Source of the DNA: Kineococcus xinjiangensis
Lineage (GTDB): Bacteria; Actinomycetota; Actinomycetes; Actinomycetales; Kineococcaceae
Reading direction: 5' to 3'
DNA: 64,000 nucleotides
Assembly: GCF_002934625.1 (NCBI RefSeq)
Contig: NZ_PTJD01000014.1
Coordinates: forward strand, 62,001 to 126,000
The translations under genes were made by a program, and so were the position numbers. Numbering within the stretch: position 1 is the stretch's first letter; each line of letters starts with the position of its first letter. Shown piece after piece: positions 6,017-60,789 of the stretch. The notes under the pieces were generated by a model that searched no databases, had not been told where the DNA came from, and was given only the letters and a program-made list of their open reading frames with translations.

Positions 6017-6649
6017 TCAGGAGTTCGCGACCGTGAGGTGCACCGGGGTCAGCCGGGTTCCGGGCCCGGTGATCCTGCGACCCAGGTCGGTGTACTCGGC
6101 GCTGTCGGCGTAGGGAATCCGGAGATCGATGCAGATCTTGCCGTGGGTGTAGCGGGCGAAGGCCTGGTCGGCGTACTTCAACTCGAGTCTCGGGTAGCCC
6201 TTGAAACCGATCGTCGTCCCGACTTCCAGCTCGTCGATCGGGGTCCAGGACGCTGGCACGCCGATCTTCTCGTGAACGCGACGCAGCTCCTCGTGGCCCG
6301 CGATGGCGAAGTGAGCGCTGACGGCACCGGTGACCAGGGTGATCACGTCGATGGTGGCCGGGACGGCCCAGCGGTGACGGGTGGGGATGAGCTTGCTGAT
6401 CGCCATGACGCTCACGAGGACGCCGGGAAGGTAGAGCAGCGCCGCCCAGAGCCACCCCAGGGGGCCACTGGCGAAGCCACCGAAATGTACGACCAGGGCG
6501 ACGATCGCGCACCACGCCAGTCCGAAGAGGACCGCTAGGGCCATGATGAGGGGACGGGCTGCGCCGTGGCGAGGGCGCCCGTCATCGCCGGCCATGGAGT
6601 GGTCCTGGCCTGCTGAGTCGCTCATGGCAGAAGTCTGGTCTCCCTTCAT
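6017..6649 (-). CDS. Unrecognised membrane protein with three predicted helices
   Basis: I do not recognise this family. From the ATG at 6649 the product has 210 residues: a polar N-terminus, three hydrophobic segments (PLIMALAVLFGLAWCAIVAL, GWLWAALLYLPGVLVSVMA and VPATIDVITLVTGAVSAHFA), and a soluble C-terminal domain of about 85 residues with SWTPIDELEVGTTIGFKGYP and TPVHLTVANS. The start is uncertain: ATG codons at 6625 and 6595 are also possible, and the latter has an AGGA 7 nt upstream. The gene sits inside a pair of 21-bp inverted repeats, and the upstream repeat ends two bases before the 6649 ATG. It may therefore have moved as a unit. Confidence 0.55.
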   Translation of the reverse strand: MKGDQTSAMSDSAGQDHSMAGDDGRPRHGAARPLIMALAVLFGLAWCAIVALVVHFGGFASGPLGWLWAALLYLPGVLVSVMAISKLIPTRHRWAVPATIDVITLVTGAVSAHFAIAGHEELRRVHEKIGVPASWTPIDELEVGTTIGFKGYPRLELKYADQAFARYTHGKICIDLRIPYADSAEYTDLGRRITGPGTRLTPVHLTVANS

Positions 6650-56313: not shown

Positions 56314-56524
56314 CGCGCGGGCACCGCGCCGCACTGGACGTGGCCGCCCCGATACCCGCGGATCGTCACGAAGGTCCCCGGACACCCGCAGACCGGCGCG
56401 ACCTGAGCACGCAGCCGAACGTGATGCCGTCGCATGCCGGCGAGGCGGCAACCTCGATGCAGTCCGCGACTTCCGCTGAGCGGGTCGGGCAGGCCAGGAG
56501 CGCCGGCACCGGATGCGGGGCCTA

Positions 56525-56542
56525 GGCCGTGTCCTGCGGATC
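56525..56542 (+). repeat. Left terminal inverted repeat
   Basis: GGCCGTGTCCTGCGGATC, preceded by CCTA. The identity with the right end extends outward through GGCCTA because the CTAG target is itself palindromic. Confidence 0.85.
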
Positions 56543-56566
56543 TTGTAGCTGCGTCACCATGGCCGG

Positions 56567-57447
56567 GTGGGTGGGGTTGGTCGTGGCGAGGTCACCGACA
56601 AGGCATGGGCGCAGATCGAGCCGCTGCTGCCACCGACGGGGCAGCGCGGTGGTCGCTGGCGTGAGCACCGCCAGGTCGTGAACGCGATCTTGTGGAAGCT
56701 CCGCACCGGAGCACCGTGGCGAGACCTCCCTGAACGGTACGGGCCGTGGAAGACAGCGCATGAGCGGCTGCGGAAGTGGACCGCAGACGGCACCTGGGAG
56801 CGAATCCTGGCCGAGATCGTCGTCAAGGACGACTCCATCAGCTCTCTGAATGAGGCCACCACGGTGGTGGTCAGCATCGACTCCACCCACGTCCGGGCCC
56901 ACCAGCACTCCGCCGGTGCCCGGAAAAAGGGGGCTGTGCCGCCTGGATCGAAGACCTCGCCGTCGAAGGGGAGTGCCTCGGACGCTCCCGGGGAGGTCTG
57001 ACATCGAAGCTGCACCTGGCCGTCGACGCCTTCGGCCGGCCGCTGGCGGTCATCCTCACCCCTGGCCAAGCGGGCGACAACCCCCAGCTGCTGCCCTTGC
57101 TGGATGCCCTGTCCGAGCTGTCGGTGCAGGGCCGCCGGCTGCGCGTCGAGCGGGTCATCGCCGACAAGGCCTACGCCCACCACCCAACCCGTGAAGTACT
57201 GCGTCGCAGGCGGATCAAGGCGACCATCCCAGAACGGCTCGATCAGATCGCCCGCCGCAAGGCCAAGGGCTCAGCCGGCGGACGGCCACCGGCGTTCGAT
57301 CCGGACATCTACCGCCAGCGCAACGTCGTGGAGCGCTGCATCAACCGCCTGAAGCAGTTCCGTGCCTTCGCCACCCGATACGCCAAGAGAGCCGCCTACT
57401 TCCGCAGCGAGGTGATCATCGCCTGCATCATGCTCCACCTGCGGTGA
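56567..57447 (+). CDS. IS5-family DDE transposase, two frames joined by -1 frameshift
   Basis: The first frame runs from GTG 56567 (VTDKAWAQIEPLLPPTGQRG, NAILWKLRTGAPWRDLPERY, VVSIDSTHVRAHQHS with catalytic Asp). At 56924-56933 is AAAAAGGGGG, a slippery run. A -1 shift there continues as AWIEDLAVEGECLGRSRGG, TSKLHLAVDAFGRPL, RVIADKAYAHHPTREVL (second Asp) and QRNVVERCINRLKQFRAFAT (Glu), to the stop at 57447. All three catalytic residues are present, so the fused protein of about 290 residues may be active. Without the shift the first frame stops at 57001. Confidence 0.88.
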
Positions 57448-58345
57448 GCCCGGGGACGCGGTCCAGTTCTGTGAGGACGGCTCGCAGTGCGGGGCTGGCA
57501 TCGGCGCTGCGCCGCCATGCAGCGTGCACCTCGCGCTTCGGTGGCCGCCGCAGCGGTCGGGCGACAAGTCCGTCATGCAGGGGTGGGCGAGCAAGGCGGG
57601 GAATGAGAGCGATGACGCCGCTGACGGCGACGAGCGAGAGCTGGGTGGAGAAGTCGTCGATGAGATGACGCACGTCCGGTTCGCCGGAGACGTCGGCCAC
57701 GAGGCGGCGGAACCACTGGTGGCACACCGTGCCGGGCGGGCTGGTCACCCAGGCATGGCCGGCGAGGTCGTTCCCGGTGAGCGCTTCCTCCCGTTGCGCC
57801 AGGGGATGCTCACGTCTCATGACGACATCGCCGGCATCGGTGTGCACGTGTCGCTGGGTCAAGGAGCCCGGCAGTACGGCCGGCAGCCCGTCGGCGTCGT
57901 GGACCAGGGCGAGATCGGCCGCGCCGGTGGCGACGCTGCGCAGAGCATGGTCGGGGTCCTGCTCGACGATGTCCACGCGCAGGTCCGGGCAGCGCGTCGA
58001 CAGATGCCCGACGGTGGGCGCGAGCAGCCCACGGATGGCGGTGGAGAAGGCCGCGACGACCAGCGTGCCGCGCGGTGCGCCCCGCGAGGCCGAGCGGGCC
58101 GCCTCGGCGCAGCGCTCCAGGGCCTGGAACACCTCCGGCGCCGACTCCACGATCGCTCGCCCGGCAGGAGTGAGCACGACCCCGCGTCCTGCCGGGGCCA
58201 GCACGGGCACCCCGACCTCGCGCTCCAGCCTCTTGATCTGCTGCGAGATCGCCGACGCCGTGAACCCCAGCTCCTCAGCCGCTCGCGCCAGCGTCCCCAG
58301 GGCCGCCACTGACCGCAGCGCCCGCAGCGCACCCACATCGACCAT
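57428..58345 (-). CDS. LysR-family regulator (passenger gene)
   Basis: A 305-residue regulator: LRALRSVAALGTLARAAEEL and FTASAISQQIKRLEREVGVP in the winged helix, then the sensor domain (TLVVAAFSTAIRGLLAPTVG, LSLVAVSGVIALIPRLARPP). Its last codons run 20 bp into the 3' end of the transposase gene on the other strand, so the C-terminal GLTAGGA is encoded by IS DNA. This suggests the gene was joined to the IS at this point. Divergent from the DapA-like gene with a 73-bp gap, so it probably controls that gene. Confidence 0.9.
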   Translation of the reverse strand: MVDVGALRALRSVAALGTLARAAEELGFTASAISQQIKRLEREVGVPVLAPAGRGVVLTPAGRAIVESAPEVFQALERCAEAARSASRGAPRGTLVVAAFSTAIRGLLAPTVGHLSTRCPDLRVDIVEQDPDHALRSVATGAADLALVHDADGLPAVLPGSLTQRHVHTDAGDVVMRREHPLAQREEALTGNDLAGHAWVTSPPGTVCHQWFRRLVADVSGEPDVRHLIDDFSTQLSLVAVSGVIALIPRLARPPLHDGLVARPLRRPPKREVHAAWRRSADASPALRAVLTELDRVPGLTAGGA

Positions 58346-58418
58346 GAAGCCACGCTACGCAATACAGGCAAGAAGGCATCGCTGGACCCCGGCGATGGTG
58401 CGGCGGCAGGGTCGAACC

Positions 58419-59327
58419 ATGACGGACCCGCAGCGTTCCGCCGAGCAGGTCTTCGGCTCCAATCTCGTCGCCATGGTCACGCCCATGAACCCTGACGCCA
58501 CGGTCAGCGAGCCGGGGCTCACGGGCTTGGTCGAGCACCTGGTGGGCACGGACTGCGATGGCATCGTCGTTGGTGGCACCACCGGTGAGGCGCCCACCCT
58601 GACCGCCCATGAGGCGGCACGGCTCGTCCGCGCCGTAGCGGCCCAAGCGCGAGGCCACGCCCGGGTGATCGCTGGTGTCGGCACCTACGACACCGCCGAC
58701 AGCGTGCGACGAGCACAGGAGGCCGAGGCTGCCGGGGCGGACGCGCTGCTGCTCGTCTGCCCCTACTACTCCAGGCCCACCCAGGCGGGGGTCGTCGCCC
58801 ACTGCGTGGCGGTGGCCGACGCCACCGAGCTGCCCGTGATGCTCTACGACGTCCCCGCCCGCGCAGGCATCGCGATGGAGGCGGCCACGCTGGTCGAGCT
58901 GGCCGGCCATCCCCGCATCCGGGCGGTCAAGGACGCCAAGGGCGACCTGTTCGAGGCGATGTCCGTCATGGCCGACACGTCCCTGGCCTACTACTGCGGC
59001 ATCGACGAGCTCAACCTGCCCTACCTCGCGTGCGGGGCCACCGGGGTGGTCAGCGTCGTGGGCAACATCGCCGCCGACCGCACCGCCCACCTCATCCGCG
59101 CAGTCCGCGACGGCGACCTCGACACCGCCAGAGCGATGCAGACAGAGCTACTTCCCTTGACCGAGGCCATCATGCGCACCTCACAAGGCGCGATCATGGC
59201 CAAGGCCGCTCTCACCGAACTGGGGATCATCTCGCACGCGACGGTGCGCCCGCCTCTGCTGGAGTCGCCGCCGGCCGACCTGAAGCGGCTGACCAGAGCC
59301 CTGGCCGCGATCGCCGTCCCCGCCTGA
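58419..59327 (+). CDS. dapA: DapA-family aldolase (dihydrodipicolinate synthase-like, passenger gene)
   Basis: A 302-residue (beta/alpha)8 enzyme. VVGGTTGEAPTLTAHE holds the Thr-Thr pair, LPVMLYDVPARAGIAM the Tyr, and IRAVKDAKGDLFEAM the Schiff-base Lys; YYCGIDELNLPYLACGATGV is the late motif. These match 4-hydroxy-tetrahydrodipicolinate synthase, which condenses pyruvate with aspartate semialdehyde in lysine and peptidoglycan-precursor synthesis. Because it lies in a mobile element with a LysR gene, it may be an accessory copy or act on another aldehyde. ATG 58419 follows AGGG. Confidence 0.88.
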   Translation: MTDPQRSAEQVFGSNLVAMVTPMNPDATVSEPGLTGLVEHLVGTDCDGIVVGGTTGEAPTLTAHEAARLVRAVAAQARGHARVIAGVGTYDTADSVRRAQEAEAAGADALLLVCPYYSRPTQAGVVAHCVAVADATELPVMLYDVPARAGIAMEAATLVELAGHPRIRAVKDAKGDLFEAMSVMADTSLAYYCGIDELNLPYLACGATGVVSVVGNIAADRTAHLIRAVRDGDLDTARAMQTELLPLTEAIMRTSQGAIMAKAALTELGIISHATVRPPLLESPPADLKRLTRALAAIAVPA

Positions 59328-59349
59328 CCTGGTGTTGCTGCGTGGCCGA

Positions 59350-59700
59350 TCAGTCGCACACGAAGCAGAACTCGTTGTCCTCGGGATCCCGGATCACCTG
59401 GTAGGCGCCCAACGGGCCGCGCACGACCACGCCGACGCGGGTGGCGCCGAGGATAAGAGCTCGGGCCACAGCGGCGTCGATGTCGTCGACCTCCAGATCC
59501 AGGTGGAGGCGGTTCTTGCCCTGACGCGCTTCGGGCACCGGCTGGAACGAGATGCGGGGCATGCCCGGCGCCTCGATGTGCGACCAGCCCAGGTCACGAT
59601 CAACCGCCTCGGCACCCAGAAGGGCCGCCCAGAAACGCGCCAGTCGCGCAGGGTCACAACTGTCGATGACCACCTGATCCAGACGGACGCGCACACGCAC
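59350..59700 (-). CDS. VOC-family protein (passenger gene)
   Basis: A 116-residue glyoxalase/bleomycin-resistance-fold protein: LDQVVIDSCDPARLARFWAA, GKNRLHLDLEVDDIDAAVAR and YQVIRDPEDNEFCFVCD, one full VOC module pair. It resembles the small glyoxalase-like group common in actinobacteria, of unknown substrate. The start is one of several tandem GTG codons at 59700-59690. It converges on the DapA-like gene and is the last gene before the right IS end. Confidence 0.82.
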   Translation of the reverse strand: MRVRVRLDQVVIDSCDPARLARFWAALLGAEAVDRDLGWSHIEAPGMPRISFQPVPEARQGKNRLHLDLEVDDIDAAVARALILGATRVGVVVRGPLGAYQVIRDPEDNEFCFVCD

Positions 59701-59780
59701 ATCCTACGAAGCTGTTGACCACCCGGTCAGGACGGCGACACTCAACACCACCAAATGCGAGCCGTGGTCCGGGCCATCAT

Positions 59781-59798
59781 GATCCGCAGGACACGGCC
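59781..59798 (-). repeat. Right terminal inverted repeat
   Basis: GATCCGCAGGACACGGCC, the exact complement of the left end, followed by TAGG. It lies 81 bp beyond the VOC start codon. Confidence 0.85.
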
Positions 59799-60023
59799 TA
59801 GGCCACATGGGGGGCCCTGCCGCGGCAGCGCTCCGGGAGCGGCCGTTCCGGACGAGACTGTCTCGCGCACCCCCGGAACACCGGGACGCGCTCCCGCGAC
59901 AGCGGACCGGCGAGCGATCATGCCCAGCGAAGCGCCCCGAAAGTTTTCGGTTTCCTATAGAATATCCAAGCCTCGAGCGATTCACGCTCCTGGTCACCGC
60001 CCTCGTCCTGCACAAGGAGCTCC

Positions 60024-60727: not shown

Positions 60728-60789
60728 CAGACAGCAGTGAACCTCGGGACCGGTGCGACAGCGCCGGTCCCGAGGTTCACTGCTGTCTG
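60728..60789. terminator. Very long perfect hairpin after the RICIN gene
   Basis: A 26-bp perfect stem (60728-60753 with 60764-60789) and a 10-nt loop, 110 bp past the RICIN stop. No T-tract follows. Its length is well above the usual terminator. The remaining gap, 60790-61110, shows no gene or repeat that I can support. Confidence 0.65.

Follow-up and report, generated by a model that had tools for sequence, protein, structure and literature searches.

Positions 56525–59798 of the window (the whole 64,000-nt stretch of DNA analyzed) probably constitute an IS427-type member of the IS5 family whose two ends enclose passenger genes, an arrangement called a transporter IS (tIS). Genes for a LysR regulator, a dapA-like enzyme and a VOC protein, none of them devoted to transposition, lie together with the transposase inside both ends of one IS (Table 1). 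This remains the best reading of what had been proposed as an IS5-type element with passengers; it is strengthened by a sister element in G007, another genome of the family, and more weakly by a copy in G005, whereas movement of the window's own unit is inferred.

Table 1. Features of the element and its target site (window coordinates).
Feature	Position	Strand	Basis
Whole unit, end to end	56525..59798	+	3274 bp; 18/18 inverted ends, TA outside both
Left terminal inverted repeat	56525..56542	+	Repeat comparison and end-pattern search
Outer right terminal inverted repeat	59781..59798	-	Repeat comparison and end-pattern search
TA target duplication, left copy	56523..56524	none	Flank reading
TA target duplication, right copy	59799..59800	none	Flank reading
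Transposase ORF A (DUF4096)	56567..57001	+	PF13340 4.2e-30; NF033580 134 bits vs cut-off 110
Transposase ORF B, C-terminal DDE part	57097..57447	+	DDE_Tnp_1 1.1e-8; the open frame, 197 aa, extends further upstream
GGAAAAAGGGGGC, probable -1 frameshift site	56918..56930	+	Sequence; frameshifting predicted
Degenerate right-end match at ordinary place	57446..57463	+	12/18; 10/16 beyond GA
LysR regulator, cargo	57428..58345	-	PF03466, PF00126; relatives
4-hydroxy-tetrahydrodipicolinate synthase family gene, dapA-like, cargo	58419..59327	+	PF00701; TIGR00674 244.2 bits vs cut-off 206.15
VOC / Glyoxalase_6 gene, cargo	59350..59700	-	PF18029 9.1e-30

The terminal repeats, GGCCGTGTCCTGCGGATC at 56525–56542 (+) and 59781–59798 (-), are identical at 18 of 18 bases, and with the flanks counted the repeat tool returned an inverted repeat of 27 nt at 96%. 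The ends (GGCCGTGTCC...) are of the GGG..GTGTC kind seen in the IS427 group, with TA on both sides, in each case within CTAG. An 18-base degenerate end pattern, allowing at most one mismatch, was searched in 12 family genomes including the host's own (G000), with the reversed pattern as control. It occurs at 16 places, against one for the control, and because such ends are this rare a chance inverted repeat was ruled out as the origin of the outer right end. Only four places match without mismatch: the two ends of the element, one in G004 and one in G007. Both ends of the element carry a GGCC variant where G004 has GGGC. The 18/18 ends and the LysR, DHDPS and VOC domains bear out the original prediction that 18-bp ends at TA/CTAG targets enclose a transposase and 2.3 kb of further genes. 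A repeat of 2 bp, TA, does little to prove one insertion, and a palindrome in the flanks, tried as proof of a single insertion, was uninformative when tested on 31 insertions.

The transposase is of the IS5 family (IS427-type) and is encoded in two open frames that overlap at GGAAAAAGGGGGC. PF13340 and PF01609 identify it as an IS5-type DDE transposase, with ORF A above the cut-off of NF033580 (NCBIfam transpos_IS5_3) and the ORF B piece alone below it. The frames contain the motifs SIDSTH (ORF A) and IADKAY and NVVERC (ORF B), which we take to hold the DDE residues, the first catalytic D being in ORF A. Two overlapping ORFs with a slippery motif are as in the IS427 group, frameshifting being predicted from the sequence. 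The size is not: members of the group measure around 0.8–1 kb with the right end at the transposase stop, whereas the element measures 3274 bp and ends 2.3 kb beyond that stop.

In G004, the closest ordinary relative (83% nucleotide identity), a good right end begins at the transposase stop. The window has no good end there, as had been claimed, but a 12/18 match to it is still in place. Its score of 10/16 beyond the fixed GA is reached by 0.8% of 3910 background sites, and it may be what decay has left of the original right end. LysR ends at 57428, and the final 20 bp of the gene overlap the 3′ end of the transposase, which agrees with the proposal that the last LysR codons are made of IS DNA. 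For seven LysR relatives, the protein match stops at residue 294 (five relatives), 296 (one) or 303 (one) of 305; the junction in IS DNA therefore cost LysR little.

The cargo DapA scores above the curated equivalog cut-off of TIGR00674, an assignment at the sequence level, and by sequence its top PDB matches are DHDPS enzymes. Nine genomes from other families contain the divergent LysR–dapA pair without the IS. Among 148 other genomes, six from a single family have it at 73–76% nucleotide identity and G018 has it at 68%; a second scan, of 393 other genomes, found it at 80% in two. Neither the transposase nor the VOC gene is near the pair in any of the nine (at least 1.5 kb on each side, wider for six). 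Compared with the two 80% relatives, LysR and DapA have dN/dS values of 0.24–0.30, which speaks for retention of function in both over that divergence. The DapA cut-off is passed by three genes in the host genome and by one in each of the eleven other family genomes. The DapA encoded on contig C1, taken to be the housekeeping copy, shares 51% identity with the cargo DapA, which would be an extra, self-regulated DapA. The third gene above the cut-off, on C7 (G000:C7:78620-79465; L200), is 30% identical to the cargo DapA. A simple scan found no sigma-70-like promoter. Plasmids gave one 134-bp match, within dapA, and no LysR match at 1e-60, and viral contigs contained no relative of LysR or ORF A.

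The 3.3-kb unit is single-copy in the host genome (a draft of 42 contigs), where neither a second copy of it nor any other copy of the IS was detected, and the whole unit is absent from the 148 other genomes (two candidates scored per genome). The genes to its left, a permease-like frame and another LysR, are conserved in nine of the 11 other family genomes. To its right, these 11 genomes give only matches shorter than 120 bp, so no empty site could be read. The dapA region was likewise not found at this place without an IS in any relative, the locus having no counterpart among them. A query joining the two flanks gave single-side matches only among the collected loci, apart from the window's own copies. 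Just left of the element, window positions 56354–56467 are 76% identical to G000:C14:129371-129482, 7.6 kb beyond the right end, which resembles the C terminus of a tyrosine integrase; the stretch left of the element is a possible insertion hot spot. Downstream of a ricin-type lectin gene, positions 60728–60789 form a 29-nt inverted repeat (4-nt loop, 97% complementary) that is perhaps a terminator.

The sister element in G007 (loci L036, L037 and L195) contains an IS of 81% nucleotide identity, in which the transposase is followed by approximately 0.7 kb and then by a distal right end. Its second copy matches at 95% identity for 1143 bp and at 93% across the final 131 bp; between these stretches lies an insertion, presumably of IS256 type, and the left end is missing. 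The third copy, 763 bp at 94%, comprises the last bases of the transposase, the cargo and the end. Outside the three copies, the flanks diverge from the TA outwards. Since all three share cargo and end while their flanks differ, the distal end genuinely bounds a unit that was copied in G007. None of the three combines two good ends with an intact transposase, the transposases being broken or cut. The G007 cargo contains one 157-aa ORF with no Pfam match; relatives occur in G010 (49%) and G001 (30%), and matches in three of 396 genomes of the order altogether.

Close copies of the IS within the family comprise the window, an ordinary copy in G004, two with transposase in G007, one in G005, and remnants in G003 and G008. 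In the G005 copy, a left end is followed by 2 kb containing an alpha/beta hydrolase gene, then by a decayed transposase and a right end. This copy may thus carry 2 kb on its left side, a weaker case because 4 of 18 positions differ between its ends. More distant transposases in the family, in G010 (1013 bp) and on contig 444 of G005 (972 bp), have right ends near the stop; that of G002 gave no end pair under the pairing rule, and a right-end-like stretch follows its stop. Of eight solo ends examined for partners, only L055 has one, at four mismatches. One solo end lies beside CTA at L049 5001–5018 (G000:C13:131803-131820), with no such transposase detected within approximately 5 kb, and similar solo ends occur at L053 (G007) and L054 (G005).

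In a tree of 29 IS rows (five family copies and 24 of the 80 relatives surveyed below), the family copies form one side of a branch with support of 100/99; the G008 remnant sits on a long branch, and support for the branching order within the family is only partial. The cargoes of the window, G007 and G005 differ, which suggests that they were gained separately. Because close relatives also picked up extra DNA, this IS line may be prone to becoming a gene carrier.

Beyond the family, the best 80 of 133 relatives from a scan with ORF A were surveyed. Ordinary ISs of approximately 0.9 kb account for 53 of the 80, 45 by the pairing rule, with ends 856–965 bp apart (first-listed ordinary pair taken), and eight more by eye, with both ends at ordinary places. 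Cargo between the transposase and a distal end was found in 0/80 loci, with few mismatches allowed and 26 of the 80 unjudged (cut by contig ends, truncated or unpaired), consistent with the earlier view that passenger carriage is uncommon in the IS5 group. A Sciscionella locus with 2366 bp between its ends (L118) was rejected as a passenger case, as another transposase gene, presumably of IS110 type, lies inside its transposase. Two loci with broken right ends, L088 and L129 (the latter near a contig end), were not counted as cargo and are among the 26. L118 (4181–5600) and L036 (match end near 6296) are both interrupted at or near the frameshift site, with similar junction sequence; the frameshift site of IS5-type transposases is perhaps a preferred target of another IS.

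In the proposed mechanism, the transposase is probably made by -1 frameshifting between the two ORFs and would bring together the left end (56525) and the outer right end (59798) and transfer the full 3274 bp into CTAG-type sites with duplication of TA. At the transposase stop, the right end may have decayed or been replaced, locking the LysR, dapA and VOC genes inside, and the outer end may once have belonged to another IS copy or been a solo end. We infer that the 3.3-kb unit itself moved or can move.

It is unlikely, though worth weighing, that two separate IS remnants bracket host genes and that the 3.3 kb never moved as one. The left IS would then have lost its right end up to LysR and the right IS been reduced to its end; a decayed composite transposon is a milder form of the same idea. 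Solo ends do exist in these genomes, and a stray end could lie near an IS, since the host genome holds four other single near-ends, each with one mismatch and one of them beside CTA. That the LysR–dapA pair is an ordinary chromosomal one elsewhere, and that the whole unit has no second copy, would also fit. Two separate insertions are nevertheless less likely because the genome contains no other copy of this IS. The two ends are, moreover, identical and share the GGCC variant, as against GGGC in G004, and, as G007 shows, a unit of this kind can be copied whole. In a composite transposon, two IS copies would flank the cargo; the right side of this element has the 18-bp end only, and traces of an IS beside it are not significant (p 0.07 to 0.31). 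Very improbable is an ordinary IS that sometimes carries neighboring DNA by way of an end look-alike, without fixed cargo, as described for a single IS1380-family copy and adjacent DNA in excerpts of PMC3281130: the outer end is perfect, and G007 retains one cargo across three copies.

If the tIS reading is correct, an end shift can turn a very small IS, usually limited to its transposase, into a vehicle for metabolic genes, and more than once within a single lineage. The element would allow the conversion of an IS into a unit transposon to be traced, and would mean that mobile DNA carries an additional dapA-type gene under separate regulation. A broader proposal, arguable but on balance doubtful, is that the IS427-type lineage in this actinobacterial family is a repeated gene-capture platform that loses its inner end and adopts an outer one, having separately taken LysR and dapA with VOC, the 157-aa gene and the hydrolase gene, and that spreads them as mini-transposons of less than 4 kb.

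The tIS concept is established (excerpts of PMC3129680, PMC9330008, PMC7986276 and PMC10132070; for IS4, PMC2266710), and examples in the same partial sources (PMC7986276, PMC10132070, PMC9330008, PMC3129680) are ISDsp3 (IS6) and ISKpn21, ISKpn65 and ISRel10 (IS1202 family). As in these four, one IS holds passenger genes within its two ends. They differ in belonging to other transposase families and in their cargo, given in those excerpts as hypothetical or unidentified; here it comprises a regulator, an enzyme of known family and a VOC protein. A limited literature search, in part at abstract level, found no IS5-family tIS, which is weak evidence of novelty, and titles and abstract openings mentioned no mobile dapA. 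IS5-family transposases inside a Tn3-family transposon (excerpt of PMC7371123) are a different thing from a passenger-carrying IS. With the IS427 group, exemplified in excerpts of PMC6514802 and PMC3281130 by ISPssp5 (837 bp), the element shares two ORFs with a frameshift motif, GGG..GTGTC ends and a TA duplication. Ordinary members are without passengers, in contrast to the 2.3 kb of cargo and the shifted right end seen here. IS4-family elements of the Bacillus cereus group also hold passenger genes between one end and the transposase, on the left side according to excerpts of PMC2266710, as in G005, whereas the cargo of the window lies on the right. The G007 element likewise has its cargo between the transposase and a distal right end, and differs in the cargo itself and in its three copies. 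The Bacillus cereus group elements with extra DNA are presumably IS231-like.
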